IMG/VR virus record: IMGVR_UViG_3300043673_000007
Location: 1-39,318 of that record
Reading direction: 5' to 3' (one strand)
Origin: a virus
Length of the DNA stretch: 39,318 nucleotides
Positions within the stretch are counted from its first letter, which is position 1. Each line of letters opens with the position of its first letter. The position numbers and the translations under genes are program-made. Under the pieces are notes generated by a model that searched no databases, had not been told where the DNA came from, and saw only the letters and a program-made list of their open reading frames with translations. Shown piece after piece: positions 2,424 to 32,079 of the stretch.

Positions 2424-4079
2424 CTATTCGGCGGCGGTCGCGAACGCGGGCTCGGATTGCGTGTCGAACAGCCGCGCGGTGCATCGCTTTGCCAGCTTGA
2501 GCGCCTTCGCCCAGGTCGGCGCCGTGACCTGCGGCCGCGCCGGGTTCATGATCTCCTGCTGTTTTTGTCCGAACGAGACAAAATCCAGACACTCGTCGAA
2601 CGCCTTGGTCAGTTCGGCGAGCCATTTGGATTCATCGAACGAGGGCACGACAGGCTCGCGCCGATCGAGGAAGGCCGGGATGCCGTCCGGCGCCAGTGTT
2701 TCGGTATCAACAACCGGCTTGGTTGCTTCGACCACCAGCCGCGAGGCCAGCAGTTCCGGCGACGGCGTGTTGTCGCGGGGTGCTGCGAGCTCGGCCGGCA
2801 GACTGTCGTTGAGGTCGTTCGACCTCATGTCCTTCTCCATCGCGGACGCATATTTTGAGGGCTGGCCTTCGAGTTCGCGATGCAGGCTGTCAAAGCCGGC
2901 GCGGAGGTCGACCAGCGGCATGGTTTCCTCGATCTCGACATAGCCGCAGCCGCCGAAGTGGGTTTTGAGCAGGGCGATGCGGCGCTGCTTTTCGGCGATC
3001 GCCTGGCCGCCGGCATGCTGGACGAGCAGGTCCTGCAGTTCGCCCAGCACGATCTTGCGCTGCACCGGCTGCCAATCGCGCTTTTCGGTTTTGAGGATGG
3101 ACTGGCTGTCGCCGTCGGAACGCACGCCAAGATGCTCTCCGCCGATTGCCAGCAGGTTGATGTGCGGCAGGAAGTCCGCGAAATCCGGATTGTCGATCTC
3201 GTCGCCGTTGATCTGGTCCCAGCGATCTTTTACGACGGTAGCCATGTTGACGAAGGTGCGCTTGCGCCCGGTCTGTTCGCGGTTGTTGCGCTCCATCAGC
3301 TTCATTTCGATCAGCAGCGACGGCTCGAAGCCGGTTTCGGCCTCGCCCTTCATCTTGACGCCGACCTTTTCGAGCTGGCGCTTGCCCTGCTCGTCGGTAT
3401 ATTGCTCAAGATCGTCGCCGGCCCGGCCGCACATGATGATGTGCAGCTTCGAGTTGATGAAGCGGTTGGTGAACATCGCCCAGCCGTAATCGCCCTTGAG
3501 GTATTGATAGTCGTCGATCTGCAGGAAGGTGCGGTTCTTCTTCTTCAAATAGGCCGCAATCATCTCGCGATACGGGTGCGTGATGCTGTCGATGATCAGC
3601 ACAGAGCAATTGACCTCGGCTTCGTCCATTGCCTTCACCAGGTCGGCGAGCGTCTTGGTCTTGGCGACGACGAAGGGAATGCCGGCGGCCTCGAAATCCG
3701 GAATCAGGAAGTCTGAGCCGGTTTCGGTATCGAAAAACGCGACCGGCTTGCTGGCATAGGTGATGCCCATCTTTTTCAGGTGCTGCACCAGGCCGATCGC
3801 GACCTTGCCGGCGGTTTTGGTTTTGCCGGCGCCCTGCTTGCCCATGATCCCCATCTTGAGGAACGCGGACTTGTTGGCGGCAGGCTGGAAAACTGACATT
3901 GGCGACATCGTAAACGTTCCTTCTGTTGCGACCTTGGCGGCGGTCGTTGGCCGGGAGGGAAGGGTGATGGATGGTCCTGAGGCGCGGGCCTCGAAGGCCT
4001 TGAGCTCGCGGACGCGATGATCGACGAAGCGCTGGGCGAGCTCGTCGGCGAATTTGTTGTGGTCGGTGCGGTCGAGCAT
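2424..4079 (-). CDS. phage P-loop ATPase (RecA-like/AAA_24-type)
   Basis: A 551-residue protein. After a variable N-terminus comes a Walker A motif, GKQGAGKT (about residues 80-87), then FFDTETGSDF (115-124) and a Walker B strand, SVLIIDS (159-165). A helicase/recombinase-like body follows up to about residue 380, and then a long charged tail. The layout resembles phage RecA-fold ATPases of the AAA_24 type, which include Sak4-like recombination proteins, but this one is more than twice the length of Sak4. The start at 4079 is set by TGATG coupling to the small gene upstream; an internal ATG near residue 58 is the alternative. It probably acts in recombination or replication of phage DNA. The ATPase call is firm, the precise role is inferred. 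Confidence 0.8.
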   Translation of the reverse strand: MLDRTDHNKFADELAQRFVDHRVRELKAFEARASGPSITLPSRPTTAAKVATEGTFTMSPMSVFQPAANKSAFLKMGIMGKQGAGKTKTAGKVAIGLVQHLKKMGITYASKPVAFFDTETGSDFLIPDFEAAGIPFVVAKTKTLADLVKAMDEAEVNCSVLIIDSITHPYREMIAAYLKKKNRTFLQIDDYQYLKGDYGWAMFTNRFINSKLHIIMCGRAGDDLEQYTDEQGKRQLEKVGVKMKGEAETGFEPSLLIEMKLMERNNREQTGRKRTFVNMATVVKDRWDQINGDEIDNPDFADFLPHINLLAIGGEHLGVRSDGDSQSILKTEKRDWQPVQRKIVLGELQDLLVQHAGGQAIAEKQRRIALLKTHFGGCGYVEIEETMPLVDLRAGFDSLHRELEGQPSKYASAMEKDMRSNDLNDSLPAELAAPRDNTPSPELLASRLVVEATKPVVDTETLAPDGIPAFLDRREPVVPSFDESKWLAELTKAFDECLDFVSFGQKQQEIMNPARPQVTAPTWAKALKLAKRCTARLFDTQSEPAFATAAE

Positions 4080-8498: not shown

Positions 8499-9076
8499 TG
8501 GTGAACGCTGACGAATATATGAAGCGGCTGCGGGGTGCCGTCTCCGGCATCCTGCCTTTCCTTGATGGCGAAACATTCCATCAATATGCCGAGCGCGCCA
8601 AGGGCGAGCCTTTCGAGACGCGATGGTTTGTTTCGTGTAAAATCGAGAACGTCCTCGATGCGATGCAGGTCGAGCGACAGAAGGCCAAGGCTTCTTGGAT
8701 CGCGTCGGCGCGGCTCAAGTTCTCGCCGGGCGATCGCCAGCCCTGCAAGGTATGCGGCAAGTACAGATCCCTAACCGAGGCCCATCATGTTGTTCCGCTG
8801 GCCGTCCAGTTCGAGGCCGGCGCGATCGACCCCCTCCAAGAATTCATCTGGCTCTGCCCAACCCACCACGCTGCCCAGCACGTTCTAATAGCCGCCTTGC
8901 TGCGCAACGAGCCGACGCCGCAACTTGAGGGCATGCCGATCGCGGAGCGAGATGCGCTCAACTTCGATCCTGAGATGGCGCGATACGTCACCTTGATTCA
9001 CGCGCTGCCAAACTCCGCCGCGGTCTTCAAAAACTTTCCCGATCTCGAAGCTTATTTCCGGGAGAACGGCAAATGA
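8498..9076 (+). CDS. HNH endonuclease domain protein
   Basis: A 192-residue protein. Residues 1-80 are a helical N-terminal part. The HNH region follows: CKVCG (83-87), EAHHVVPLA (94-102), then WLCPTHHAAQH (118-128). The CxxC and CxxH pairs bind structural zinc and AHH supplies the catalytic-type histidines. Stand-alone HNH proteins in phages act as nicking or packaging-associated nucleases, or as restriction-type enzymes; this one is far from the terminase, so a packaging role is less likely. The start at 8498 is set by TGATG coupling. Confidence 0.75.
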   Translation: MVNADEYMKRLRGAVSGILPFLDGETFHQYAERAKGEPFETRWFVSCKIENVLDAMQVERQKAKASWIASARLKFSPGDRQPCKVCGKYRSLTEAHHVVPLAVQFEAGAIDPLQEFIWLCPTHHAAQHVLIAALLRNEPTPQLEGMPIAERDALNFDPEMARYVTLIHALPNSAAVFKNFPDLEAYFRENGK

Positions 9077-10401
9077 TGTTGGTTCGTAAATTCAATTTCG
9101 AGCCCATCGCGACGTTGATGCCGGGCCATGCGCCGCTGGGCTTTCATCCGTTTGCGAATCTTTTTCCGATGCTGACTGAAGACCGTCGGACGCAATTCCG
9201 GGATTCCCTGGCCGAGGGGCAGCTTCATGCGGTCACTCTCCACAAGGGGCTGGTGCTCGACGGTCGCAATCGCTATCGCGAACTCTGCGAACTCAAAAAG
9301 CCCGTTTCCTATCGGGTCTTTGTTGGCACTGATCGCGAGGCGCTGGATTTTGTTGTCGTCGAAAATCTTGATCGACGCGATCTGACCGATCACGACCGCG
9401 TCCGGATTGCATCTAAGATCAGCGGCCTCCGGCTTGGCGATAACAAATTCACGCGGCAGGCTCCGCCAAATGGCGGACCCTCGCTCGATCTTGGCTTTGA
9501 TCCAGCGCAACCGGAACAAGCTGAAAGGCCGCCTCTGTCGGCGGCTGAGCGTGCTTCAATTATGCATGTGCCCCTACGCAGCGTCGAGCGATCTGACGCC
9601 ATCGACGCGAAGGGTGCTCCGGAGCTTCGCGATGCCGTAGATAAGCGCGAAATACCAATTGCGACCGCGGAAGCGATCGCAAACCTGCCGGTTGAAGAAC
9701 AGCGTCAGATTATCGCCGGTGCTGATCCGAAGGCTGTCACCGAGATCGCCAAAAAGATTCGCAAGGATAAAAACGACGCTCGCCGTGCGGAGCGGATTGG
9801 AAAACTCGTCGCGCAATCCGCCGGCAATACCGATCTCAACACGGCGCGCAAATTCCCCGTGATCTACATGGACCCGCCGACAAAATTCGCGGCCGGGGAT
9901 TCAGACCGCTCGACCGAAAACCACTACCCGACGATGGACGAAGCCCAGATCGCGGCACTTCCCGTCGGCGAGCTCGCGACCGATGACGCCGTGCTGTTCA
10001 TCTGGACCACCGTGCCCTGGCTGCGCAAGACCATGACCCTGATCGAAGGCTGGGGCTTTGCCTACGTCTCCGAACTCGTCTGGGACAAGCAAACGCTCGG
10101 CCTCGGCTTCTGGAATCGCAACGTCCACGAAACGCTCTTGATCGCGACGCGCGGCAAGATCCCCGCGCCGGATCCGTCAACGCTGAAACCGTCGCTGTAT
10201 TCGGAAGCGCGCGGCAGGCACTCGGCCAAGCCGGAATATTTCCGCGATCTGATCACAGCCTATTACCCGGATTTGCCCAAGGTCGAACTTTTTTCCCGGG
10301 TCGATGGCGTGCTTCCCGAGGGATGGACGGCGTGGGGCAACGAAGCGCGGCTGCAGAAACAGCAGACGCTTGGGATCGAAGGCGCGGAGGAAGCGGCATG
10401 A
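9073..10401 (+). CDS. ParB-like/MT-A70 adenine-methyltransferase fusion
   Basis: A 442-residue protein with three parts. Residues about 10-125 are a ParB/Srx-type domain (LVLDGRNRYREL at 60-71, ENLDRRDLT at 97-105). About 150-235 resembles the ParB helix-turn-helix region (LSAAERASIMHVPLRSVER). Residues 255-430 are an MT-A70 N6-adenine methyltransferase (IYMDPPT at 264-270, FWNRNVHETLLIATRG, HSAKPEYF, VELFSRV, GWTAWGNE). The family signature is DPPW; here it reads DPPT, while the rest of the fold is intact. Such fusions occur in phages and mobile elements and methylate DNA at sequence-specific sites. It probably protects against restriction, if the Trp-to-Thr change leaves it active. Coupled to both neighbours by ATGA. 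Confidence 0.85.
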   Translation: MMLVRKFNFEPIATLMPGHAPLGFHPFANLFPMLTEDRRTQFRDSLAEGQLHAVTLHKGLVLDGRNRYRELCELKKPVSYRVFVGTDREALDFVVVENLDRRDLTDHDRVRIASKISGLRLGDNKFTRQAPPNGGPSLDLGFDPAQPEQAERPPLSAAERASIMHVPLRSVERSDAIDAKGAPELRDAVDKREIPIATAEAIANLPVEEQRQIIAGADPKAVTEIAKKIRKDKNDARRAERIGKLVAQSAGNTDLNTARKFPVIYMDPPTKFAAGDSDRSTENHYPTMDEAQIAALPVGELATDDAVLFIWTTVPWLRKTMTLIEGWGFAYVSELVWDKQTLGLGFWNRNVHETLLIATRGKIPAPDPSTLKPSLYSEARGRHSAKPEYFRDLITAYYPDLPKVELFSRVDGVLPEGWTAWGNEARLQKQQTLGIEGAEEAA

Positions 10402-10823
10402 ACGTCGCCATGGCCATCGATACGCTGCGCGCGAAAGCCTCCGATGCAAACGAACTGCATCGGCTGCGGGATCGCGTCGAAGAACTTGAGCAATTGCTCG
10501 GCATCGTCGCGGAGGATGTCGTCGATCGGTTTATAGCGCTTGGAATCTCGCCGGGAGAAAAACGCATCCTCAACGTGTTGTTCACCTGGAAGCTGGTTCG
10601 CCGCGAAAAGCTTTATACGCTGCTTTACGGCAATAGACCGGAATGCGATCAGCCCGATGTGCGGACGATCGACGTCCAGATTTGCAGGCTGCGCAAATAT
10701 CTTTCAGCGTTCAATATTGCGATCGGCACACAGCGCGATGCTGGCTGGTTCATCACGGAAGAGAACAAAGAAAAACTTAAAAATTTGGCTGACTGGCTTC
10801 TGAGCGGAGAACGGATCGCATGA
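10398..10823 (+). CDS. CtrA/OmpR-type winged-helix DNA-binding protein
   Basis: A 141-residue protein from ATG 10398, coupled to the methyltransferase. Residues 10-40 form a coiled coil (LHRLRDRVEELEQLLG). Residues 48-118 match the OmpR/PhoB C-terminal winged helix and especially the CtrA version: SPGEKRILNVL, then KLYTLLYG, then DQPDVRTIDVQICRLRKYL as recognition helix, and the wing GTQRDAGWFI in place of ETVWGRGYVL. It lacks the receiver domain and its phosphorylated Asp, so it would bind DNA without phospho-control. CtrA is the master cell-cycle regulator of alphaproteobacteria; a free DNA-binding domain could compete at CtrA sites or regulate phage promoters. Confidence 0.7.
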   Translation: MNVAMAIDTLRAKASDANELHRLRDRVEELEQLLGIVAEDVVDRFIALGISPGEKRILNVLFTWKLVRREKLYTLLYGNRPECDQPDVRTIDVQICRLRKYLSAFNIAIGTQRDAGWFITEENKEKLKNLADWLLSGERIA

Positions 10824-11329
10824 AGCAGTCAAAGCTCATGTCGTGGCTGGAAACCTGCCTCAATACCGCGATCGGATTTGTCATCGCGATCACGACGCAA
10901 ATCCTGGTGTTTCCGCTGTTCGGCTATTCGCCGCCGCTGTCGACCAATTTCAAGATCGGGCTGATCTTTACCGTCGTCTCGATCGCGCGCGGCTATGTGC
11001 TGCGCCGGATGTTCGAATTTCTCCATATCCGCCGGCGGCTGTCGCCGTTCATGCTGGCCGTGATCGCGGAGCGTTTCCGTCAAGAGGATCAGGAAGGCTG
11101 GTCGCTCGAACACGATGACGCTCACGCCGCCGGCGAACTCGCACAAGCCGGCGCCGCGTACCTCCTGCATGCCGGCACCGAATCCGGCACCACGCCGCAC
11201 GAATGGCCCTGGACCGGCGACTGGTGGAAACCGGCCGGCTACCGCCGCGACCTGGTGCGCGGCGTCGCGCTCGGCATTGCCGAAGGCGACAAGTTCGATC
11301 GCAGCCGCAAGTCGGGGAGGGGCCGGTGA
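10820..11329 (+). CDS. membrane protein fused to a cytosolic phage domain
   Basis: A 169-residue protein. Residues 1-70 read MKQSKLMSWLETCLNTAIGF and continue with two hydrophobic helices and VVSIARGYVLRRMFE, as in a common small phage membrane family (DUF7220-like). Residues 78-165 are a different common phage domain: ERFRQEDQEGWSLEHDDAH, then AGAAYLLHAG, WPWTGDWWKP and RRDLVRGVALGIAEGD. These two are usually separate proteins, so this looks like a fusion that tethers the second domain to the membrane. The second domain's biochemical role is unknown. Confidence 0.65.
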   Translation: MKQSKLMSWLETCLNTAIGFVIAITTQILVFPLFGYSPPLSTNFKIGLIFTVVSIARGYVLRRMFEFLHIRRRLSPFMLAVIAERFRQEDQEGWSLEHDDAHAAGELAQAGAAYLLHAGTESGTTPHEWPWTGDWWKPAGYRRDLVRGVALGIAEGDKFDRSRKSGRGR

Positions 11330-11505
11330 TCGACCGTCAACGTGGCAAGATCGTGGTGGAATGCGATTCCTGCGACGAAGTCCTCCATACCGACACGGCT
11401 GACTTCGAGGAAGCCCGCGAGCTGATGAAGCAGGACGGCTGGCGGGTCCGCAAGGTCGCGGGTGAGTGGCTGCATGGTTGCGCGAAGTGCGGGGTGCCGA
11501 CGTGA
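11326..11505 (+). CDS. small zinc-ribbon protein
   Basis: A 59-residue protein starting with GTG at 11326, coupled by GTGA and preceded by a very strong GGGGAGGGG ribosome site. CDSC (13-16) and CAKC (52-55) are two zinc knuckles separated by a helix (DFEEARELMKQDGW). This fold is shared by many small phage proteins of unknown function. The coding sequence is compact and fully in line with its neighbours. Confidence 0.6.
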   Translation: MIDRQRGKIVVECDSCDEVLHTDTADFEEARELMKQDGWRVRKVAGEWLHGCAKCGVPT

Positions 11506-11954
11506 CCGAAACCCTCACCGTGTACGATCCCTTCCTCGGCAAGGACGTTGAGGTCAGCGACAGACTGGTCGATCGGCTGCGCGGCAAATATGCGTGCGGC
11601 CCGTTGCTGCCCAATGGCGAGCCGGAATTCGGCTGGCGCCAGCATGATGCGCCGCCAATCCAGATTGAAGCGGCGACAGAGATTGAGCAATTGCGTGCGG
11701 AACGCGACGCTGCCGATCAAGTAGCGCTTACCGCGAAGCGTTATGTCGAAGCGATGAAAGCCCGGTTCGACGAAGCCATGGATCTGTTGCGGCCGCTCGC
11801 GGCGCTGGGTCCGATTTGCGATCACTTCAACCATCCAGATCGGAAAACGGTCTGTGCTTATACGATCAAGGGTGAGCGACGCTTTGGACCGACGGCCGGA
11901 GAATGCCGCGCGGCGCATGATTTCATCACTGGCGTTGAGGCTAAGAAATCATGA
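11502..11954 (+). CDS. hypothetical coiled-coil phage protein
   Basis: A 150-residue protein starting with GTG at 11502, again coupled by GTGA. After a short N-terminal beta part (ETLTVYDPFLGKDVEV) comes a long helix (EIEQLRAERDAADQVALTAK and onward to the low 100s), probably a coiled coil. The end holds a CDHFNHPDRKTVCAYT segment that could bind a metal. No enzyme motif. It is placed directly before the cytosine methyltransferase and overlaps it by ATGA. Confidence 0.55.
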   Translation: MTETLTVYDPFLGKDVEVSDRLVDRLRGKYACGPLLPNGEPEFGWRQHDAPPIQIEAATEIEQLRAERDAADQVALTAKRYVEAMKARFDEAMDLLRPLAALGPICDHFNHPDRKTVCAYTIKGERRFGPTAGECRAAHDFITGVEAKKS

Positions 11955-14062
11955 CGACCCGCAAAATCCTCGTTGCCGATCTACTCTGCGGCGCCGGCGG
12001 TTCGTCGACCGGTTGCGCGCGCGCGATGAAGCGGCTTGGGATCGAGATGGAGCTTGTCTGTGTCAACCACTGGCCGACCGCGATCGCGACACATACCAAA
12101 AATCATCCGCAGGCGCGGCACTACTGTCAGGACATCTCTGCGGTTCGGCCCCATCTGATCGTGCCGGAAGGCCGCCTCGACCTCCTGATGGCATCGCCGA
12201 CTTGTACCCATCATTCCGTGGCGCGCGGAGGCAAGCCCACCTCCGATCAGCAGCGCTCCGACCCCTGGCACATCATCACCTGGCTGACCGAACTCCGCGT
12301 CAAGCGGATGATCCTCGAGAACGTCTGGGAATGGACCAAATGGGGCCCGGTCGACGAATTCACCGGCAAGCCGATCAAGGAACGCGAAGGGGAATATTTC
12401 CGCGCCTATATCGACACGGTGTGGCGTCTCGGCGCGACGTCGATCGAATGGCGCAAGCTCAATTCCGCCGACTTCGGTGCCGCGACCACACGGCAACGTT
12501 TCTACGGGTTCTTCCGGTTCGACGGAAAGCCGTTGCTATGGCCGGTCGCGACGCACGCGAAGCTGCCGGCGAACGATGACCTGAAGCGCTGGAAGGCCGC
12601 GCGCTACATCATCGACTGGAGCATCAAGGGCCGCTCGATCTTCGGCCGCCCGGTCCCGCTGGCGCCGAAAACCCTGGCCCGCATCCTGGCGGGCGCGCGC
12701 AAGTTCGGCTGGCCCGAAATCTTCATCACGATGCTGATCGCGGAGATGGACCGGTCACTGCTTTACGCGATCCGCTACGCCTTCCTGCGCCGTCACGCCA
12801 AGAAAGCGGATGTGCGCAAGCGCTGCCGGGCCCGTGTGCCGGAATATATCGCGTGGCTTCGCGTCCTCCGCGCCGTGCCGCAGAGTGTTGTCGCCGCTGG
12901 CGAGGGCCGCAGCGCCCCGATGCTGGTGACCCTGCGCAACCATGCCGACGGCCGCTCGGTCGATCTGCCGGTTCCGGCAGTGGCGGCAAACGGCACGCAT
13001 ATCGGGTTGGCCGAGCCGATCATCGTCAACATGAAGGGGCAATCGAAAGCGGGCAGTGTCGATAGTCCGCTGCCGACGCAAACCTCTCATGCGGCGCATA
13101 TCTATGTTGCCGATCCGGTCATCATCAACGGCCGCAAAGGTAACAAGGCGAAGGCGGTTTCGATAGCGCCGGTTCCGACGCTCGATACCAAGGGCGGCAT
13201 CTGGCTCGCCGAGCCCTTCATCCTCAATCGTCACGGCGAGGGTTACGGTGAAACCCGGGCTCATTCGACGAATGCTCCGCTGCCGGCGGCCGACTGTCGC
13301 GGCGCGGGCTATTTGATCGAACCGTTCATCCTGGCCCCGGGAAGCACGGGCGCCCCGCGTGAAGTCAAGGAGCCGTTGCCGACGATCACCACGGGCGGAT
13401 CTGGCTCTGGCGAGCATGTCGGGTGCGCGCGACCGATGCTGATCGAGCCGTTCGTATTGTCGCAGGCCTCCGGCGGTTCACCACGCGAAACGACCGACCC
13501 GTTGCCCACGGCCGTGGCCGGCGGTGCGATCGCGCTGATCTCGCCGTATTACGGTTCCGGCTCCGGCGAGACCTGCACGTCGGTCGATGATCCGCTGCCG
13601 ACCGCGACCTCCAATGACCGCTTCGCCCTGGTGGTGCCGATCACGCATTCGGACGGCAGCAATCGCGCGCGCGACGTCGCGATCGATCCGCTGCCGACGT
13701 TGACGACGGCGCATCGCGGCGAACTCGCCTTTATCACGGCGCAGTTCGGCGAACGGGAAGGCCAGGCGCCGCGCGTCCACGATATCGACAACCCGGCGCC
13801 GGCGATCTGTGCGACCGGGCACGTCAATCTTGTGCAGGCATTCCGTCACGACATCCTGTTCCGCATGCTGGAGCCGCACGAGCTCGCCGCCGCGATGGGT
13901 TTCAACAACGATGAAATTCCATACGAATTCGTCGGCAACAAGACCGAGCAGGTCAAGCAGATCGGCAACGCCGTCCAGGTCGACCAGATGGAAGCGAACG
14001 TCTATGCGATGATGCAGGATGAAGTCGAGGCGCCTCCGCAGTTTCTGGAGGCAGCGGAATGA
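11951..14062 (+). CDS. C5 cytosine DNA methyltransferase with internal repeat domain
   Basis: A 703-residue enzyme. Motif I is DLLCGAGGSSTG (10-21). Motif IV is SPTCTHHSVARGG (82-94), with C85 as the catalytic thiolate; PTC instead of PPC is seen in this phage subgroup. Motif VI is ENV (123-125) and motif VIII FGAATTRQRFYG (175-186). The C-terminus carries LEPHELAAAMGF (640-651) and IGNAV (671-675), motifs IX-X. Between them, residues 325-630 are about nine repeats of roughly 34 residues with the signature PLPT plus an EPFIL-like strand. This is where target recognition lies in the family, so the enzyme may have an expanded or multiple specificity. It transfers methyl from S-adenosylmethionine to C5 of cytosine in phage DNA, likely to evade restriction. 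Confidence 0.88.
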   Translation: MTTRKILVADLLCGAGGSSTGCARAMKRLGIEMELVCVNHWPTAIATHTKNHPQARHYCQDISAVRPHLIVPEGRLDLLMASPTCTHHSVARGGKPTSDQQRSDPWHIITWLTELRVKRMILENVWEWTKWGPVDEFTGKPIKEREGEYFRAYIDTVWRLGATSIEWRKLNSADFGAATTRQRFYGFFRFDGKPLLWPVATHAKLPANDDLKRWKAARYIIDWSIKGRSIFGRPVPLAPKTLARILAGARKFGWPEIFITMLIAEMDRSLLYAIRYAFLRRHAKKADVRKRCRARVPEYIAWLRVLRAVPQSVVAAGEGRSAPMLVTLRNHADGRSVDLPVPAVAANGTHIGLAEPIIVNMKGQSKAGSVDSPLPTQTSHAAHIYVADPVIINGRKGNKAKAVSIAPVPTLDTKGGIWLAEPFILNRHGEGYGETRAHSTNAPLPAADCRGAGYLIEPFILAPGSTGAPREVKEPLPTITTGGSGSGEHVGCARPMLIEPFVLSQASGGSPRETTDPLPTAVAGGAIALISPYYGSGSGETCTSVDDPLPTATSNDRFALVVPITHSDGSNRARDVAIDPLPTLTTAHRGELAFITAQFGEREGQAPRVHDIDNPAPAICATGHVNLVQAFRHDILFRMLEPHELAAAMGFNNDEIPYEFVGNKTEQVKQIGNAVQVDQMEANVYAMMQDEVEAPPQFLEAAE
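12923..13840 (+). repeat. about nine tandem protein-level repeats in the methyltransferase
   Basis: P-x-P landmarks at residues 339, 373, 407, 443, 475, 517, 548, 580 and 615 give spacings of 34, 34, 36, 32, 42, 31, 32 and 35. The typical unit is [G-rich start]-[charged]-DPLPT-[T/S/A]-x-[G-rich]-[IEPFIL]. Copies differ strongly at DNA level, so duplication is old or kept divergent. Confidence 0.75.
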
Positions 14063-16818
14063 CCGCATCAGCGCTCGCCAGCAATCCCACGGCACCCCCG
14101 GAAATGTTCTGGTACGATCAGGCGCGTTCGCCATCGGTCAAGCTCGGCATGATCGAGCTTGAAAACGGGAAATGGATGGCGTTGCCGCCCGGTTTCCACG
14201 TCGATGCGCCGCAGTTCGAGACGAGAGACGCCGCGCTGCGAACCGCGATCGCGCAGACGATCCGCAAGACCCGGCGTTTTATGCGCGCCGGCGAGGGCCA
14301 AGGTACGCATTATAGCGAAGGCTATGGCGGGCGGATCATTGAATGGGCGATGTCGATCGCGCCGCCGCGGGGGCAAGTGTCTGTTTTGTCCGATGTATTA
14401 GCCAATATTGATCAGCCGTTCATGTCGACCGCGGTCGGAATTCCGATCACGGAAAAACAAATCCCAATTCAAGTTGCCAGCGGGGCGGATGCGGCACCTA
14501 TCGATCACCCTGGCACCGAAGATGAGGCGAAGCCGATTGTTGATGGGCCGCTGCTTACTGCCAAGGGCAGGGCACCCGTCAATAGCTATTTCGCGTGCCA
14601 CGGTCCTGATGATGGCGAATGGCACATTCCCGAAGACGATCGCTTGCGCGGCGTCGATCGACAAATCGGGTTGCTGGAGCTCAACAACGGCAACTGGATG
14701 TCTCACCCCGACGGTCTCATGACGTACAGCCGTCAGTTTCCAAGCCGGGAAGCCGCTCTGCGAAGCGCAATCGCGAAGGTGATCTGGTATCAGCGGTTGA
14801 TTGTCCGCGATCGCAAGAAATTGCCCTCATCTCTCAATCGCGGCGATGCGCCGGAAGTGATCGCATGGGCATTGAGTTTGAACCCCGGGCGCGACGGCGC
14901 CCCGGCAGCGGGCCCGCACCTTAGGACTGGCTTGGTAGAGGGCGCAGGCCCCAACACCACTGCGCCTGCGGGCCCGCAACCTCTTGAGGAAATCAACCCT
15001 CCGGCCAATGCCGCCAACGACTTAGAGGCCAAAACAGCCTCAGAGGAAATCACCCCTCCAGATACCGCAAGCGCCGACGACAGGGTGATCGAAGATTCGC
15101 CCAGCGCGCACAGTGGTGGATTGAAACAGCCCTTACCTACCGACCCCATCGTCGCCTCCCTGGTCGCCGCCCATCGCGCCCGCAAAACCTTCCCCGACGG
15201 CCACACCTTCGCGATGACCAACCCGATCATCAACGGCCACATGGTCACGCTGGGCACCTGTTCGTGCGGCGACGTGTTCTCATACACCTACGGCTCTTAC
15301 GAGCGGATGGACGCCGCGATCGAGGCGCACTGGCAGACCTTCGATCATCTGCCGGCGAAGATCGACGGCCGGGGAAATCCGATCAACGCCGACGGCAGCG
15401 CCATCGTCGCGCCGAAAGCCGCAAAACCGAAACGCAAGAAATCCCAACCCGGCGCCGGAGGGCAACAGCCAGCGCCGCCAGCGTCCGCACCCTTGGTCGC
15501 CCCCGTCGAGGGTGCGGACGTGCTCAATCTGGCTGCGCCAATTGGCGCAGGCACCGAAACACCAAACGGAGATACCGCAAGCCCGCCACGGCAAGATACC
15601 GGGGCGGGGCAGGATGGAGAGGCGAGCGCGAGTGCTTCCCGACCTGCGTATTTGCTCGCGCCAGTAGAACCGGCTGCTGTTGAGGTTGGCTGCGGCCAAG
15701 CCCCGGAAGTGAATTCGCCCGATCCGTTCTGGGATTCACCGCTGATCAAGGCGGCGCTGGATCTGGCGTGGCGCGAGCCGCCGCAAGTCACGGACATGCA
15801 GGCCAAGCTGCTGAATTTCAGCAAGGTGTATGCACCATGTGGCGAGGTCGAACGACCTGTTTTGAGATGGCATGGTGGCAAGTGGAAACTGGCGCCGTGG
15901 GTGATGAGTTTCTTTCCGGAACATCGGATTTATGTCGAACCATTCGGCGGCGCCGGCTCGGTCCTGATGCGAAAGCTGAGGGTCTATGCCGAGGTCTACA
16001 ACGATCTTGATGATGTGGTGACCAATCTGTTTCGCGTACTGCGGGACGACACCAAGGCCGCGCGCTTGATCGAGGCCTTGCGGCTCACGCCGTTCTCGCG
16101 CGCGGAATTTCAGGAGGCGCTGCAGGAAGCGGAAGACGACGTTGAGCGCGCCCGACATCTGATCGTGCGCAGCTACATGGGTTTCGGTTCGAACGCCCAT
16201 AGCAGCTCGTCGACCGCCGAGAAAACCGGATTCAAAAGCTTCACGCGTCCGGACGAATATCGATCGACGGGATTTCGCGCCAACAGTAAACGATCGGGCA
16301 CCACGCCGGCGCATGATTGGGCCAACTATCCCGACGCGTTGCCGTCGATTGTCGATCGGCTGCGCGGGGTGATCGTCGAACAGCGGCCCGCGATCGACGT
16401 GATGCGCCAGCACGATGGGCTGCAGACGCTTCACTATGTCGATCCGCCGTATCTGCCGGAAACCCGCTCGCCGGCGAATAAATATGATCTCAAGCATCGG
16501 ATGTACCGGCACGAATTGACGGTCGACGATCACGGCGAACTGCTGGAGTTTCTAAAGACGCTCAAGGGTTTTGTCGTGCTGTCGGGCTATCCGTCGGCAC
16601 TTTACGATGACGCGCTTCCCGATTGGCGCCGGGTGTCGTGCGACGCCCATGCCGACGGCGCGCGGCCTCGCACGGAAGTCTTGTGGATCAATCCGGCGTG
16701 TGCCTCGGCCCTCGATGAGCAGCATCCGACGTTGTTTAACATTCCCGCGTTGGATATTGCCAACGCACCCCCCCCCCTCGACGTCGAAGTAGCGGAGCCT
16801 AAGTATGCCGCGACCTAA
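14059..16818 (+). CDS. multidomain protein with C-terminal D12-class (Dam-like) adenine methyltransferase
   Basis: A 919-residue fusion. Residues 26-101 and 201-274 are two copies of one unknown domain (IELENGKWMALPPGFHV and LELNNGNWMSHPDGLMTY, each followed by a DAALR/EAALR helix and EWAMSI/AWALSL). Residues 365-435 hold a CSCGD-containing domain. Pro/Ala-rich linkers follow. Residues 598-895 are the methyltransferase: RWHGGKWKLAPW (603-614), VEPFGGAGS (626-634, S-adenosylmethionine loop) and DPPY (795-798, catalytic). Dam-type enzymes are about 280 residues, so two thirds of this protein is extra and may direct targeting. Two dispersed-repeat segments lie at the domain junctions (residues 145-151 and 340-355). 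A run of ten C near the 3' end (16768-16777) encodes part of the PPPL tail. Confidence 0.8.
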   Translation: MTASALASNPTAPPEMFWYDQARSPSVKLGMIELENGKWMALPPGFHVDAPQFETRDAALRTAIAQTIRKTRRFMRAGEGQGTHYSEGYGGRIIEWAMSIAPPRGQVSVLSDVLANIDQPFMSTAVGIPITEKQIPIQVASGADAAPIDHPGTEDEAKPIVDGPLLTAKGRAPVNSYFACHGPDDGEWHIPEDDRLRGVDRQIGLLELNNGNWMSHPDGLMTYSRQFPSREAALRSAIAKVIWYQRLIVRDRKKLPSSLNRGDAPEVIAWALSLNPGRDGAPAAGPHLRTGLVEGAGPNTTAPAGPQPLEEINPPANAANDLEAKTASEEITPPDTASADDRVIEDSPSAHSGGLKQPLPTDPIVASLVAAHRARKTFPDGHTFAMTNPIINGHMVTLGTCSCGDVFSYTYGSYERMDAAIEAHWQTFDHLPAKIDGRGNPINADGSAIVAPKAAKPKRKKSQPGAGGQQPAPPASAPLVAPVEGADVLNLAAPIGAGTETPNGDTASPPRQDTGAGQDGEASASASRPAYLLAPVEPAAVEVGCGQAPEVNSPDPFWDSPLIKAALDLAWREPPQVTDMQAKLLNFSKVYAPCGEVERPVLRWHGGKWKLAPWVMSFFPEHRIYVEPFGGAGSVLMRKLRVYAEVYNDLDDVVTNLFRVLRDDTKAARLIEALRLTPFSRAEFQEALQEAEDDVERARHLIVRSYMGFGSNAHSSSSTAEKTGFKSFTRPDEYRSTGFRANSKRSGTTPAHDWANYPDALPSIVDRLRGVIVEQRPAIDVMRQHDGLQTLHYVDPPYLPETRSPANKYDLKHRMYRHELTVDDHGELLEFLKTLKGFVVLSGYPSALYDDALPDWRRVSCDAHADGARPRTEVLWINPACASALDEQHPTLFNIPALDIANAPPPLDVEVAEPKYAAT
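14495..14510 (+). repeat. dispersed repeat, copy R3a (5' module) inside the fusion gene
   Basis: CACCTATCGATCACCC is identical over 16 bases to 7962-7977 and encodes the same APIDHP-like residues in the same frame. It separates the first and second copies of the unknown domain. Confidence 0.7.
15079..15150 (+). repeat. dispersed repeat, copy R3b (3' module) inside the fusion gene
   Basis: GACAGGGTGATCGA matches 8006-8019 and 22657-22669. GCGCAC...ATTGAAAC follows as in the copy at 22657. The translated DRVI...AHSGGLKQP resembles DRVI...AHSGNLKPS of the small protein at 22642. It separates the second unknown domain from the CSCGD domain. Confidence 0.7.
15534..15549. repeat. 16-bp palindrome, copy 1
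   Basis: TGCGCCAATTGGCGCA is a perfect palindrome within linker coding sequence. It is identical to 37742-37757, just before the tail sheath gene. Confidence 0.55.
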
Positions 16819-17410
16819 ACCGATTGGCTCGAAACGATGCCCTAAATGTAAAGAGGCAAAGCCGCTGGGGCAATTCTATGCCAGCGGCAAATATGACGGC
16901 GGCTACTCGCCCTATTGCAAGCCATGCATGCGGGCCAACAATGCTGCTCGGACGCCCGCTCAGAAGGAGCTATACGCGAATGCACAGCGCGGCACATACC
17001 CCAAGCGGAAGGCTGGAATTATCGCCTATCAGGCGCGGTTGCGCGCGAAACGACAGAAAGAAGACCCCGCAAGGTGGCGCGCCAAGAAGTTTTTCGACGT
17101 CAATCGCCGTGATGTCGCGGCGGACGTCACGATCGATTATCTAGCTGGCCTTTTTCATGCGACTTCTCGCTGCCAATGCTGCGACTGCATCCTCGAATTG
17201 AAATATATCCCGAAAGAAGAGCGGCGGTCTCGAATGAATCCCCGCGCGCCGTCCATTGATCGCGTCAACAACGATGCCGGCTATGCGCGCTCGAATATCG
17301 CGGTCATTTGCTGGGGCTGCAATGCCCAAAAATCCGACCTAACGCTCGATGATCTCGACCGGCTCCGAAAGTACATCTCGGTATTCGGGAGTTTCGACGA
17401 TGTCGATTGA
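16805..17410 (+). CDS. HNH endonuclease domain protein
   Basis: A 201-residue protein with two metal regions. N-terminal: CPKC (12-15) and CKPC (38-41) form a zinc ribbon of the kind that precedes phage HNH domains (LGQFYASGKYDGGYSPYC). C-terminal: CQCC (123-126), PSIDRVNNDAGYARSNI (149-165) and CWGCNAQKSD (169-178) form an HNH fold in which Asp-Arg plus Asn take the usual His positions; this variant is common in intron- and phage-encoded nucleases. The middle is a basic helix. It overlaps the methyltransferase by 14 bases. It could be a homing-type nuclease next to a modification gene, or a restriction-like partner. Confidence 0.75.
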   Translation: MPRPKPIGSKRCPKCKEAKPLGQFYASGKYDGGYSPYCKPCMRANNAARTPAQKELYANAQRGTYPKRKAGIIAYQARLRAKRQKEDPARWRAKKFFDVNRRDVAADVTIDYLAGLFHATSRCQCCDCILELKYIPKEERRSRMNPRAPSIDRVNNDAGYARSNIAVICWGCNAQKSDLTLDDLDRLRKYISVFGSFDDVD

Positions 17411-17504
17411 TTGCCTGCGCATGACCGAAGAGAAGATGGCGACGCCGCAACTTTTCGATTTGGCAGAGTTCGATGCTGCCAATACCCCCCCCTCACGGAC
17501 ATGA
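17400..17504 (+). CDS. possible short protein, unknown
   Basis: A 34-residue frame starting ATG 17400, overlapping the end of the HNH gene. It ends FDAANTPPSRT, encoded across a run of eight C (17485-17492). The end resembles LDIANAPPPLDV at the C-terminus of the 919-residue protein, also encoded over a C run, so it may be a copied tail. Support is weak. Confidence 0.3.
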   Translation: MSIDCLRMTEEKMATPQLFDLAEFDAANTPPSRT

Positions 17505-17513
17505 CGGAGGCTC

Positions 17514-18380
17514 ATGATGCAGCCTGATTATGCCCCGCTGTTCTATTGGGTTGCTGAGCGCGAACGCATCCGCATCGCCAAGGACGCGGGCGCTGACCTG
17601 CCTTGGACCAGCGATAGCGTCCTGTCGACATACCGCTTCTGCAATGTGCGGCGCGAGGATGACCGGGGAACGATCTGGATTCGCGAAAACATCCGTGAGC
17701 GCTACGCCAACCATCCGATGCTGTGGCTGATGCTGTGCATCGGGCGGCAGATCAACTGGCCGGAGACGCTGGCGCAATTGATCAGCGATGGCACGTGGCC
17801 GGATCAGGATCACTTCTCGCTGGCCGAGATGACCGTGGTGCTGAACAAGCGGAAAACCATGGGGCAGAAGGTCTATACCGGGGCTTATATGATCTCGGCG
17901 CCGTCGACCAAGGGCGCGGACAAGCAAGCCTACATCGCTGAGACTGTCTGCGGCGAGCTATGGAGGCGCCGGGACATTTTCGCCAAGCACTTTGCCGGCG
18001 CGCCGACGCTCCAGCGCACGCACGAACTGATCATGAGGTCGAACGGTTGGGGCCAATTCATGGCCTACCAGGCGGTCGTCGACATGCGGTTCACTGCGCT
18101 TTTGCAGCACGCTGGCGACGCCTTGACCTGGGCGGCGGCCGGTCCAGGGACGTTGCGCGGCCTCAACCGGCTGCATGGCCGCCCGGTTGATACTGCACTT
18201 TGGCAGGATCCGGCCCTTCGCGAAATGCGCGCGATCTACAAGGTAGTGCAGCAAGAGACCGGCGTCACGATGGATTTTTCCGACGTGCCAAACATCCTCT
18301 GCGAGACCGACAAATATCTGCGGGTCAAGAACGGCGAGGGTAAGCCGCGCGCCCTCTACGTGCCGGGGAGAGGGTATTGA
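17514..18380 (+). CDS. putative DNA base hypermodification protein (HMUDK-helical type)
   Basis: A 288-residue protein matching the helical domain family linked to hydroxymethyl-uracil DNA kinases and thymine hypermodification: ERERIRIAKDAG (15-26), PWTSD (30-34), YRFCNVRREDDRGTIWI (40-56) and GRQINWPETL (77-86), with a conserved helical C-terminal half (ELIMRSNGWGQFMAYQ, then DFSDVPNILCETDKYLR). In phages with modified thymine, members of this family act after hydroxymethylation of uracil. No deoxyuridylate hydroxymethylase or kinase P-loop is visible in this window, so the substrate is unknown. ACGGAGG sits before the start. It is placed with three methyltransferases, which supports a DNA-modification role. 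Confidence 0.75.
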   Translation: MMQPDYAPLFYWVAERERIRIAKDAGADLPWTSDSVLSTYRFCNVRREDDRGTIWIRENIRERYANHPMLWLMLCIGRQINWPETLAQLISDGTWPDQDHFSLAEMTVVLNKRKTMGQKVYTGAYMISAPSTKGADKQAYIAETVCGELWRRRDIFAKHFAGAPTLQRTHELIMRSNGWGQFMAYQAVVDMRFTALLQHAGDALTWAAAGPGTLRGLNRLHGRPVDTALWQDPALREMRAIYKVVQQETGVTMDFSDVPNILCETDKYLRVKNGEGKPRALYVPGRGY

Positions 18381-24184: not shown

Positions 24185-24805
24185 ATGGAGATGGCAGCAG
24201 GGGAAACCGGCAACATGGCGCAAGTGCGGGAAGCGCTGCAGGGCATTACGGGGGTCGAGAGCAAGCCGATTATTTTAGGACCGGATCGATATCTGATCAT
24301 TGTGCGACCGAACCACGAATTCGACGCGGTCGACAGTTTCCGTCGCAACAACGTCCGGGCCTATTGGCCGAATTACGAAGAACTGATGCCAACGCAGCAT
24401 CGCCACAACGGCCATCCGGTCCGGCGGATGCGACGGGTAGGCATCTTGCCCGGTTATGTTTTCAGCCCGGTCGACCATGATCAGGATTTCATGGGGCTGA
24501 TCGAGCGGATCGTCGGCGTGATCGATGTGGCGCGGACGTTTTCGGGCAACGCGCTGCTGGTGAACGAGGCCGATATCCAGATCATCCGCAAAATCGAGAT
24601 CGGTCTCAACACGCCGGAGCCGGTCAAGACGGCACACAAATTTAAAACCGGGGAAAAAGTGCGGTTTTCAGATGACCTTTCCGGCCGATGGCCGTCCGGC
24701 AAGATCACCAAGCTCGCGCGCGACGGACGGATCAAGGTCGAAGTCGAAATGATGGGCCGCAAGGTCGAGATCACGGTGTTTCCGCACCAGATCGAGCGGG
24801 TGTGA
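24185..24805 (+). CDS. NusG-family transcription factor (phage NusG paralogue)
   Basis: A 206-residue protein with a NusG N-terminal domain (about 35-140: RYLIIVRPNHEFDAVDSF, WPNYEEL, VGILPGYVFSPVD, GVIDVARTFSGNALLVNEAD) and a KOW domain at 153-206 (FKTGEKVRFSD, PSGKITKLARDG, IKVEVEMMGRKVEITVF, HQIERV). NusG binds the beta' clamp helices of RNA polymerase, and specialised paralogues such as RfaH stop termination on selected operons. It lies 575 bases before the terminator at 25377 that guards the late genes, so processive antitermination is the likely job. AAAGGCGAG is the ribosome site. Family call firm, role inferred. Confidence 0.85.
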   Translation: MEMAAGETGNMAQVREALQGITGVESKPIILGPDRYLIIVRPNHEFDAVDSFRRNNVRAYWPNYEELMPTQHRHNGHPVRRMRRVGILPGYVFSPVDHDQDFMGLIERIVGVIDVARTFSGNALLVNEADIQIIRKIEIGLNTPEPVKTAHKFKTGEKVRFSDDLSGRWPSGKITKLARDGRIKVEVEMMGRKVEITVFPHQIERV

Positions 24806-24806
24806 C

Positions 24807-25175
24807 ATGTGGAACGACGAACGCGACGCGGAACTGCTGCGGCTGTGGAAAACCAAAAGTGCCAGCCAGATTGCGGCCCAGATGGGGGGAACGACGCGCA
24901 ATGCCGTAATCGGACGGTATCACCGGATCCGCGGGGATTATGCCGACTATAACGCCGAGCGCGCTGCGGCGGAACGCAAGGAAACGATGACGAAGCGCCG
25001 CGCTCAACGAGATGCCGAGAGGAAAGCGGTCGAGACGATGCAAAACCTGATCGCGCTCGGCACTCAACGCGATGACGCTATCAAGGCGGCCGTGTCGTTG
25101 GGCGTGCGGCATACCGTCATTGCCAAGGCTCTCGGCGTTTCGCGGCAGCGGATATCGCAGGTCGGACTTTCCTAG
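24807..25175 (+). CDS. GcrA-like regulator with extra C-terminal helix-turn-helix
   Basis: A 122-residue protein. Residues 2-43 match the GcrA DNA-binding region: WNDERDAELLRLW, KSASQIAAQMGG, TTRNAVIGRYHRIRG. GcrA activates promoters that carry GANTC sites methylated by the cell-cycle methylase CcrM, and binds sigma70. Its usual C-terminal sigma-contact domain is not evident here. Instead a basic coil (ERAAAERKETMTKRRAQRDAE) leads to a second helix-turn-helix (LGVRHTVIAKALGVSRQRIS). It is the last gene before the late-region gate, which carries four GANTC sites. Likely an activator at those or other phage promoters. Confidence 0.75.
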   Translation: MWNDERDAELLRLWKTKSASQIAAQMGGTTRNAVIGRYHRIRGDYADYNAERAAAERKETMTKRRAQRDAERKAVETMQNLIALGTQRDDAIKAAVSLGVRHTVIAKALGVSRQRISQVGLS

Positions 25176-25265
25176 ACGAATGGAATCAATTTTTCCGCGA
25201 ACCGAATCACAGTAGCTCTAAAGCCCTGATCCGGTCGGCACGAACTGATCGGAGATCGAGCGAAT

Positions 25266-25403
25266 GTAAGTGTTGCCCCCTGCCAAGGGGATCCTTACCC
25301 AAGTTCCTCGACGGCGGTCCAGCAGATCGCTTCAAAACGAGCACCGCTCGTAAAGCGAAGCATTTAAAAACAACAAGCCGGGGCCTTCCGCCTCGGCTTT
25401 TTT
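25266..25403 (+). ncRNA. structured leader or small RNA upstream of the late genes
   Basis: Three consecutive hairpins without a reading frame. Hairpin 1 spans 25266-25298, closed by GTAAG/CTTAC with an inner CCCC/GGGG. Hairpin 2 spans 25329-25361: outer GCTTC/GAAGC, symmetric A-rich internal loops, inner ACGAGC-ACC-GCTCGT. Hairpin 3 is the terminator at 25377-25403. The 5' end is not visible; no clear promoter was found just upstream, so it may be the tail of the early transcript. It could be an antitermination target for the NusG paralogue, or a free small RNA. Confidence 0.5.
25377..25403 (+). terminator. strong intrinsic terminator before the terminase genes
   Basis: GCCGGGGC and GCCTCGGC pair over eight positions (one G-U) around CTTCC, then six T. 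An A-rich stretch (AAAAACAACAA) precedes it. It separates the long early operon from the structural genes. Confidence 0.85.
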
Positions 25404-25482
25404 GTGACCCTATGGGTAGATCAGCTAAAAAATGCCGTTCCCGTCATTGCCAAAGGACCGCGTCATGATCTGACATCGAAAA

Positions 25483-25522
25483 GCGGGAACCTGTGGCGGC
25501 TGGAAGTGCCGGAGGTTCCCGC
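25483..25522. other. 10-bp perfect inverted repeat, possible packaging or control element
   Basis: GCGGGAACCT (25483-25492) and AGGTTCCCGC (25513-25522) are perfect arms around 20 bases that contain a further GGC/GCC. No T tract follows, so it is not a terminator. It sits just upstream of the small terminase gene, where pac or cos sequences often lie. Confidence 0.5.
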
Positions 25523-25542
25523 GATGTCGTCGATGTTTTGCC

Positions 25543-25556
25543 ACGTTCATGAACGT
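25543..25556. other. 14-bp palindrome followed by T5
   Basis: ACGTTCATGAACGT is its own reverse complement, and TTTTT begins at its last base. It is a protein-binding dyad or a weak second terminator. Confidence 0.45.
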
Positions 25557-25560
25557 TTTT

Positions 25561-25575
25561 GATTCAGAGTGATTC
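25561..25575 (+). promoter_or_regulatory. paired GATTC (GANTC) sites before the terminase start
   Basis: GATTC at 25561-25565 and at 25571-25575 lie ten bases apart, that is one helical turn, and end four bases before the GTG start. GAATC also occurs near 25182 and 25204. GANTC is the methylation and recognition sequence used by CcrM and GcrA in alphaproteobacteria. Confidence 0.4.
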
Positions 25576-25578
25576 ACT

Positions 25579-26265
25579 GTGGGCCTTCCGCAAAAGCTCC
25601 CGGGCGATTTTGACGCGGCGGTGCCGCTGAGCGACCCTCGCTATGAGCGCTTCGCCCAGCTTCGCGTCATCGGCGTGCCGATCCGCACGGCGGCGAACGA
25701 GGCCGGTTTCCGGTCAAAGGGCGACAAGCCGATCCTGGCTGGCAACGCGGCGCGGCTCGATCGCCATCCCGGCGTCATCGCGCGCAAAGCGTTTCTCGCC
25801 GCAGACGACAACGAAGTGATCGCGGCAACGCGCAACTTCGTCCGTGACCGATTGATGCGCTCGGCGACGCTCGATGTTCTGGCGCAGTTCGCAATCCTCG
25901 GCTCGGTCGAGGTCGAAGGCAAAAAGGTCTCCCGCGTCGTCGGCATCGATTGGGAGGCGCTGAAACAAAGCGACCAGTCGATAGCCATCACGGGGTTCAA
26001 GTTCGACCGCGAAACCGGTGTGATGGTCGAATTCACCCGCGACGATCCGCAAGCGGCCCTGGCGCAGCTCCGCGACATGTACGGATTACGCGCGCCGAAG
26101 CGCACCGAATTAACAGGCAAGGGCGGCGGACCGGTGCAGACCTTGGACATGAGCAAACTTTCGGATGATCAGATCAGCAAGCTCGAGGGGATCTTTAAGC
26201 CGCTTGCCGACGCCGGCGGAAATGATGCGACTGATCCGGGCGGAGAAGCAGCGGCGGGCGGCTGA
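25579..26265 (+). CDS. terminase small subunit (TerS)
   Basis: A 228-residue protein, GTG start. N-terminal segment (YERFAQLRVIGVPIRTAANE, AGFRSKGDKP) is a helix-turn-helix as in TerS DNA-binding domains; middle part (KAFLAADDNEVIAATRNFVR) is the oligomerising helix pair; C-terminal part reads RDDPQAALAQLRDMYGLRAP and an acidic, Gly-rich tail. TerS recognises the packaging site and hands DNA to TerL. It overlaps the large subunit gene by 44 bases. Ribosome site weak, so the GTG is not certain; a GTG 14 codons later is the alternative. Confidence 0.7.
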   Translation: MGLPQKLPGDFDAAVPLSDPRYERFAQLRVIGVPIRTAANEAGFRSKGDKPILAGNAARLDRHPGVIARKAFLAADDNEVIAATRNFVRDRLMRSATLDVLAQFAILGSVEVEGKKVSRVVGIDWEALKQSDQSIAITGFKFDRETGVMVEFTRDDPQAALAQLRDMYGLRAPKRTELTGKGGGPVQTLDMSKLSDDQISKLEGIFKPLADAGGNDATDPGGEAAAGG

Positions 26266-27718
26266 AGCCGAGCGCGAGCGGGTCCGCAGCGACGCCGACG
26301 GCATCCGGGCGCGCTGTGAAACCCTTACCGGTTTTGTGCGGGAAGCCTGGCGGGTGCTGGAGCCCGAGGCGACTTATCATCACAGCTGGCACATCGATGC
26401 GATCTGCGAGCACCTTGAGGCGGTCACCGATGGGCGCATCAATCGGCTCTTGATCAACGTTCCGCCCGGCAGCATGAAGTCGCTGCTGGTATCGGTGCTG
26501 TGGCAGGCGTGGGAATGGGGGCCGAAAAGGCTTCGCTCACTGCGATATCTCGCGACGGCGTTCAATGACGGTCCGGTCAAGCGCGATACCCGCAAGGTCC
26601 GTGACCTGATTTTGTCGGACTGGTACCAGTCACTCTGGCCGGAGGTGACGCTTACCCGAACCGGCGAAACGTCGTTTGCCAACAGTGATACCGGCACCCG
26701 AGAAGGTATCGCATTCGGCTCGCTGACGTCACAACGCGGCGATCGCCTGATCATCGACGACCCGCATTCGACCGATACCGCGGAGTCGGACACCGAGCGG
26801 AGCAATACGACCCGGCGCTTTCGCGAAGGCGCGATCAACCGGCTCAACGACCAGGAGAAGTCGGCCATCGTCGTGATCATGCAACGCCTGCATGAGAACG
26901 ATATCTCCGGGGTCATCATCAGTCTGAAGATGGGCTACGTCCATCTCAAGCTGCCGCTGGAATTCGAAGCGGATCAGCGCTGCCAAACGGTGATCGGCTT
27001 CCGGGATCCGCGATCGAGCGACGGCGAATTGCTCGACCCGGTGCGGATGTCGCGCGAGACGGTCGAGAAACTGCGGCGCGATACCACCGCTTATGCGTTT
27101 GCCGGCCAATACCAGCAGCGCCCATCGCCGCGCGAAGGCAACGTCTTCAAGCGGCATTGGTTCGAGATCGTTCCGGCGGCGCCGGCCACCAAGCGGAAGG
27201 TGAGGGGCTGGGATCTGGCCGCGAGCAAGAAGAAGCCCGGGCAGTCATCGGGCCCCGCGTACACCGCCGGTTTGCGGCTCAGCGAGGCCGAGGGCATCTA
27301 CTATATCGAGCACGTCATTCGCGAGCGCGGGTCGCCGGCGGATGTCGACAAGATGATCAAGCAGACCGCCGTCGATGACGGAACGGCTGTTGCGATCTCG
27401 ATCCCGCAGGATCCGGGCCAGGCCGCGAAGGGCCAGGTGCTCTCCTTCGCTAAATTGCTGGTCGGTTACAATTGCCGGTTCTCGCCGGAAACCGGCGACA
27501 AGGAAGCCAGGGCGACCCCGGTGTCGGCCCAAGCCGAGGTCGGGAACGTCAAGATCGTCAAAGGTGACTGGAACGAAGCCTTCCTCGAGGAACTGTGCCT
27601 GTTCCCGAATGGCAAGTTCAAGGATCAGACTGATGCGCTGAGCCGGGCGTTCGGCGAATTGCTGGCGATGAAAACGACGCAGACCCGTCAGGTTCACATC
27701 AACTTCATGGGGCGCTGA
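26222..27718 (+). CDS. terminase large subunit (TerL)
   Basis: A 498-residue packaging ATPase-nuclease. Adenine-binding region HHSWHIDAICEHL, a Walker A of the deviant TerL type (VPPGSMKSLL), Walker B RLIIDDP with the catalytic acidic pair, then coupling motif IVVIMQRLHENDI. The C-terminal nuclease begins RGWDLAASKKKPGQSS (Asp as first metal ligand) and ends near KFKDQTDALSRAF (second Asp). It cuts concatemeric DNA and pumps it into proheads. Start at ATG 26222; an ATG one codon on is equally possible. Confidence 0.92.
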   Translation: MMRLIRAEKQRRAAEAERERVRSDADGIRARCETLTGFVREAWRVLEPEATYHHSWHIDAICEHLEAVTDGRINRLLINVPPGSMKSLLVSVLWQAWEWGPKRLRSLRYLATAFNDGPVKRDTRKVRDLILSDWYQSLWPEVTLTRTGETSFANSDTGTREGIAFGSLTSQRGDRLIIDDPHSTDTAESDTERSNTTRRFREGAINRLNDQEKSAIVVIMQRLHENDISGVIISLKMGYVHLKLPLEFEADQRCQTVIGFRDPRSSDGELLDPVRMSRETVEKLRRDTTAYAFAGQYQQRPSPREGNVFKRHWFEIVPAAPATKRKVRGWDLAASKKKPGQSSGPAYTAGLRLSEAEGIYYIEHVIRERGSPADVDKMIKQTAVDDGTAVAISIPQDPGQAAKGQVLSFAKLLVGYNCRFSPETGDKEARATPVSAQAEVGNVKIVKGDWNEAFLEELCLFPNGKFKDQTDALSRAFGELLAMKTTQTRQVHINFMGR

Positions 27719-32011: not shown

Positions 32012-32079
32012 AATCAGCGGCGGACGTAACCGTTCGCCGTTCCCTTTTTTAATCGCGACCAACGCAGGAGCGCGCGTCG

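Follow-up and report, generated by a model that had tools for sequence, protein, structure and literature searches.

A phage NusG paralogue gene linked to a conserved, covarying RNA and an intrinsic terminator upstream of the late genes

Results and discussion

The virus record analysed here (39,318 bases in all; referred to as the window) carries a conserved, covarying RNA element of three hairpins (P1-P2-P3) between the gene of a phage NusG paralogue and the terminase and structural genes, and this element is followed by an intrinsic terminator (T1). Judging from the sequence and from analogy with known systems, we consider it somewhat more likely than not that the NusG paralogue loads at P1-P2-P3 and carries RNA polymerase through T1 into the late genes.

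A NusG paralogue upstream of the terminase and structural genes

The window represents a contractile-tailed phage (a tail sheath gene was found), and its terminase is most closely related to those of Hyphomicrobiales, with a Bradyrhizobium prophage as the best match (80%). Starting at about 8 kb and continuing to the end of the window, the genes on the plus strand are tightly packed, and the gap at 25176-25578 is the widest between gene calls on this strand from 8 to 39 kb. Located upstream of the gap are the genes of an HTH protein, the NusG paralogue (nusG, 24185-24805, plus strand), and a GcrA-like regulator (24807-25175, plus strand; Pfam GcrA, 48.8 bits against a cut-off of 26.9). Downstream of it are the genes of the terminase small subunit TerS (25579-26265, plus strand; homology to other TerS), which is the first late gene, the terminase large subunit TerL (26165-27718, plus strand; phrog_38, E 1.5e-73), portal, scaffold, and capsid. 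The original prediction had named a GcrA-like gene and had placed terminase and structural genes after a terminator, and both are borne out by these assignments. At 9073-18377, the window encodes MT-A70, C5, and D12 methyltransferases and a protein with a 5-hmdU DNA kinase helical domain (HMUDK_hel, E 3.7e-46); given these genes, the phage DNA is possibly modified.

The ORF at 24185-24805 scored over the cut-off against Pfam NusG (E 2.7e-5) and matched PHROG 6386 'transcription antiterminator' (E 1.3e-14) as well as the PDB profiles of NusG (1e-26) and RfaH (8e-11). Its AlphaFold model has an NGN+KOW fold (pLDDT 83); with respect to the autoinhibited alpha-helical KOW of RfaH, KOW is modelled as beta in a prediction that depicts one state only. 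The protein is thus what had been predicted from its sequence, namely a specialised paralogue of the NusG/Spt5 family in which NGN and KOW are both present.

This NusG is highly diverged. When it alone was used as the query, tblastn retrieved no relatives in phage records, scans of IMG/VR with its short peptides (8-mers) gave no match, and profile searches with the NusG alignment returned no usable stretch or no relative; the relatives were reached via those of TerL and via whole genomes. The TerL relatives led to seven further non-identical loci with NusG homologues upstream of TerL. Among 392 genomes of the Bradyrhizobium group, 25 had a NusG match, at least one of which is the NusG of the host itself (L219, where a ribosomal protein L11-like gene comes next). 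The nearest relatives of the window NusG show 50-65% identity. In L212-L214, homologues of the window methyltransferase genes and of the HTH gene precede nusG, and nusG therefore appears to be placed at the end of the early operon.

A conserved and covarying RNA downstream of nusG

The RNA fold of the gap had a z of -4.8 over its full length and of -3.2 when only the part preceding the terminator was folded, and no shuffle equalled these values. Three hairpins had been predicted before the terminator; they are real, although their coordinates needed correction. P1, consisting of a basal stem and an inner hairpin, is at 25256-25311, P2 at 25313-25331, and P3 at 25337-25351, all on the plus strand. 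A hairpin near 25230-25255 had no counterpart seen in the relatives. The 5′ arm of P1 is a copy of the nusG 3′ end (AGATCGAGCGAATGTAA, 25253-25269, plus strand), the first 10 nt of which are identical to 24789-24798.

A leader homologous to window 25253-25353 was found directly 3′ of the nusG stop in 11 relatives, and a covariance model recovered two further copies (L359 and L361) that had not been used to build it. In the relatives, the 5′ arm of P1 is made of the last nusG codons (GATCGAGCGxxxGTAAG), the 3′ arm of P1 reads CTTxCCCAAGTYCCTCGA, and P2 reads GCGRTCC..GGATCGT. The stem sequence of P3 is almost wholly changed among relatives and differs in most of them, and it is paired in all 12 of the 12 sequences. 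P1 and P2 were recovered unaided by RNAalifold. In an alignment of only fourteen sequences from related phages, which was fitted to the structure and so leans towards it, and whose cells are not independent events, 83.7% of the cells were paired versus 75.9% after shuffling (0 of 500 shuffles) and at most 48% after sliding. Double changes occurred in 14 pairs of these 14 sequences (40 double-changed cells). With a MAFFT alignment made without any fitting to the structure, pair counts were again higher than those of the shuffled and slid controls. The examination of related leaders for covariation, which had been suggested along with the original prediction, thus came out in its favour: P1-P2-P3 is a real, conserved, covarying RNA tied to the NusG subfamily of the window. 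The conservation and covariation of these hairpins are new here.

The linkage to nusG was specific. All 17 covariance matches above 40 bits in 684 kb, some of which are one place under two locus names, were at the end of a phage nusG (behind gcrA in the window). In 91 control loci (975 kb), the P1-P3 model found no copy, the best match reaching 17 bits. Only two matches exceeded 32 bits in the 392 genomes, both at a phage nusG; R1 matches of 17-32 bits in host genomes were treated as noise. One strong copy per record was present in the loci searched, and P1-P3 was found only with the NusG subfamily of the window in the material searched.

In the window, gcrA lies between nusG and the RNA element, and it is missing there in the relatives read. 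Although gcrA intervenes, the window kept a second copy of the nusG end as the P1 arm, which points to selection acting on the RNA. The same arrangement bears on autoregulation, in which NusG would bind the end of its own message and tune its own level or termination, with no action on the late genes. As autoregulation would have it, element and nusG 3′ end overlap in every relative read, the exceptions being L352 and the window. However, a whole gene stands between nusG and the element in the window, and about 1 kb separates them in L352, where weak P2-P3-like remnants adjoin TerS rather than nusG; we regard autoregulation as very improbable. The RNA element remains conserved in L346, although the nusG stop is replaced there by CAA and the ORF continues across it.

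Terminator T1 and the region preceding TerS

T1 (AAGCCGGGGCCTTCCGCCTCGGCTT followed by TTTTG) is located at 25375-25405 on the plus strand, with a free energy of -17.4 kcal/mol, in agreement with the strong intrinsic terminator of the original prediction. In most relatives, a terminator separates the RNA from the late genes; a convincing one was absent in 3-4 of about 15 relatives (L346, L352, and L354, with L351 doubtful). A match to Rfam ar9 (23.9 bits, cut-off 45) was dismissed as weak and resting largely on the terminator. A second strong terminator-like site is present at 32016-32049 within the late operon. Just past the T-run of T1 is the box CCCTATGGGTAG (25408-25419, plus strand), a possible -10, which resembles CCCTATAGGTAG of L355 and TATAGGG/CATAGGG of other relatives. 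From its sequence, this conserved TATAGG-like box could be a separate promoter that starts late transcripts.

A terminator 3′ of nusG would also be expected if the operon just ended there. P1-P2-P3 and T1 might then be the 3′ end of the early mRNA or a 3′UTR-derived trans-acting sRNA, protecting the message or regulating host or phage targets, while the late genes would have their own promoter after T1. This explanation fits the TATAGG-like box after the T-run, the terminator in which the element ends at most loci, the overlap of the 5′ arm with the nusG stop, as 3′UTR RNAs can show, and the known sRNA suhB/MmgR that comes next in many relatives. On the other hand, P1-P3 occurs only with the NusG subfamily of the window, and the element differs by NusG clade, one clade having phased repeats that would be needless for a stabiliser. 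We consider a 3′ end or sRNA role rather unlikely.

A strong hairpin (GCGGGAACC..GGTTCCCGC, 25483-25522, plus strand) follows T1 at the place that suhB/MmgR occupies in relatives; it is not suhB, and the RF00519 covariance model gave no suhB match in the window up to E 5. Further downstream, two GANTC sites 10 nt apart are located just 5′ of TerS (25561-25575, plus strand). Phased GANTC repeats upstream of TerS were also found in L235, L266, L272, L322, L351, and L352; near the first late gene, they take the form of phased direct repeats TGAGTCA-N4-GGANTCA-N3-TGGANTCA, with GANTC every 10-11 bp. In phage P1, the pac site contains Dam sites and is methylation-sensitive. From its sequence pattern, the GANTC array is a possible terminase/pac binding array, and by analogy with P1 it is perhaps methylation-sensitive too.

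The GANTC sites and the adjacent gcrA would also suit a late-gene promoter activated by the phage GcrA-like protein, with NusG unrelated to the switch. In Caulobacter, GcrA binding depends on N6-adenosine methylation (PMC3667746), which counts for such a promoter, as do the avoidance of GANTC in the window (58 sites versus about 137-200 expected), with four sites nevertheless in the gap, and a promoter-like TTGACTC element with more GAATC sites after nusG in L011, L026, L029, and L032. It is weakened by the relatives read, which keep nusG, the RNA, and the terminator without gcrA there, by the position of the sites at 25561 and 25571, which abut the TerS start within the possible terminase array, and by the low enrichment of GANTC after nusG in suhB-bearing loci (2.9 versus 2.0 per kb). 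A GcrA-driven switch is therefore judged improbable.

Elements downstream of nusG in other clades

Other NusG clades, named VEP and IEK from the last protein residues and not from a tree, have other elements behind nusG. In the VEP clade (e.g. L216, L263, and L341), the nusG end pairs with a downstream arm to form a stem like P1, the arms of which show compensatory changes (67 of 72 cells; 0 of 2000 arm shuffles). A search for stems between the nusG end and downstream sequence was positive (p≤0.05) at 6 of 38 loci, mainly of the VEP clade, versus 2 of 120 control ORF ends. The IEK clade (L227, L254, L272, L281, L284, L292, and L298) has three to four RYCAC[CG] repeats with 11-12-nt spacing, 0-60 nt past the nusG stop, and extra degenerate RYCAC copies were seen by eye. 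Both the VEP stem and the IEK repeats are upstream of a terminator. Behind the nusG genes of L011, L026, L029, and L032 come GANTC sites within a promoter-like element and a leader prone to form hairpins; an element of the CTTGACTC-N3/4-GAATCGGTTCTGAATCTATG type is just past or near the nusG stop (positions 3556, 5512, 4654, and 792, respectively), a pattern present in only six IMG/VR stretches. The elements of all clades lie between nusG and the genes behind it, and before the terminator in suhB-bearing clades.

A near-invariant element downstream of nusG in many relatives, present in at least 120 IMG/VR stretches, is suhB/MmgR (Rfam RF00519), for which 11 of the 12 tested loci scored over the cut-off. 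This sRNA is distinct from P1-P3; in many relatives it comes next behind the cis element and the terminator that usually follows, with the late genes after it. An interpretation of this GCCCTCCTTGGGCGTTTCCTCCC element as a cos site was rejected given its identity with suhB/MmgR; in Microcystis phage yong2, moreover, the element sits after lysis genes. Among the 75 element-bearing loci with 1 kb of upstream sequence, 35, including 8 that had been chosen for NusG or as named phages, have a NusG-like ORF at most 1.1 kb upstream on the same strand, and the others have no NusG-like ORF on the strand of the element. Terminators were found between nusG and suhB in most of these NusG-bearing loci, some of the sites by eye. 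In L221-L300 and other suhB/MmgR loci, a leader box YATAGGGTGTGCGG is present 3′ of a terminator.

Proposed late-gene switch and comparison with known systems

The gene order, the protein fold, the covarying RNA, its linkage to the NusG subfamily, and the terminator sequence are observed here, and the layout of RNA and terminator is the trace expected if a NusG paralogue were loaded at a signal in cis and a terminator served as the gate. The original interpretation is partly supported by these observations. For the window phage, we infer binding, loading, readthrough, and timing as follows. The NusG paralogue would be made as the last or next-to-last gene of the early operon, at whose end the nascent RNA would fold into P1-P2-P3. 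NusG would be loaded there, with the RNA recognised and NGN on the polymerase, and the modified polymerase would run past T1, and past subsequent terminators, to reach the terminase and structural genes. At the start of infection, when NusG is lacking, T1 would end the transcript; once NusG had accumulated, the late genes would be turned on. We more tentatively propose, as slightly less likely than not, a widespread class of alphaproteobacterial phages in which a NusG paralogue turns on the late genes and the signal in cis, located between nusG and the late-operon terminators, is particular to each clade (a covarying RNA, a stem like P1, or RYCAC repeats in phase), so that a replacement of lambda Q has co-diversified with its signals.

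Few modes of recruitment are understood for the known NusG paralogues, among them ops DNA and the LoaP hairpin. If the proposal holds, a NusG paralogue in control of late genes would represent a novel answer to a classic problem of phage biology. Such phages would also provide naturally matched proteins and signals with which target choice by NusG proteins could be studied, and orthogonal antitermination parts might be drawn from them. Many related phages provide natural variants of both NusG and signal, and lysogens releasing phages of such a layout exist in culture: Bradyrhizobium elkanii USDA 76 and B. diazoefficiens USDA 122 release ppBeUSDA76-1 and ppBdUSDA122-1, respectively, both of which have nusG, terminators, suhB, and late genes. 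We found no phage-encoded NusG late-gene antiterminator in open-licence papers, which is weak evidence of novelty; rfaH-like genes on prophages have been mentioned (PMC7593976).

The closest precedent is LoaP of Bacillus, a NusG paralogue encoded beside its target operon and acting through a leader hairpin and terminator readthrough (PMC12691694; PMC7819879), with hairpin binding and readthrough tested (PMC12691694). As with LoaP and the dfn/mln leader hairpin, the nusG gene of the window adjoins its putative target operon, a structured RNA and an intrinsic terminator lie in between, and a long operon follows. In contrast, the window system belongs to a phage of alphaproteobacterial hosts, and its RNA is larger, with three hairpins and a 5′ arm equal to the nusG 3′ end. 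None of the three window loops, by fold and sequence, is a UNCG-type hairpin, a feature of the LoaP target, and the system is therefore not filed as LoaP despite the similar layout.

In phage lambda, the entry of polymerase into the late genes is the job of protein Q, which is unrelated to NusG. The window resembles the Q/pR′/tR′ region in the succession of early region end, terminator, and late genes, and its relatives have a small RNA gene at the junction. However, the window protein has the NusG fold, not that of the Q family, and a conserved RNA replaces the Q DNA site, with no mapped late promoter. The layout is LoaP-like and stands at the position of lambda Q, with putative antitermination. 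The put RNA of HK022 is likewise a phage cis-acting hairpin RNA upstream of terminators, but put acts alone (PMC9378689), whereas the window RNA is tied to a nusG gene.

RfaH is similar in being an NGN+KOW paralogue that controls chosen operons, and differs in its ops signal, the window hairpins being RNA with covariation. No GGCGGTAGC of ops was present in window 25176-25578, and no support was found for CAGTAGCTCTAAAGCC at 25209-25224, which we take to be JUMPstart-like. In some of the suhB-bearing relatives, GCGGTAGCG, which forms the core of ops12 GGCGGTAGCGTG (PMC5995543), is present about 30 nt upstream of suhB (exact in 11 of 37 leaders versus 0.9% of random windows), and in suhB-bearing NusG loci this sequence doubles as one arm of an RNA hairpin.
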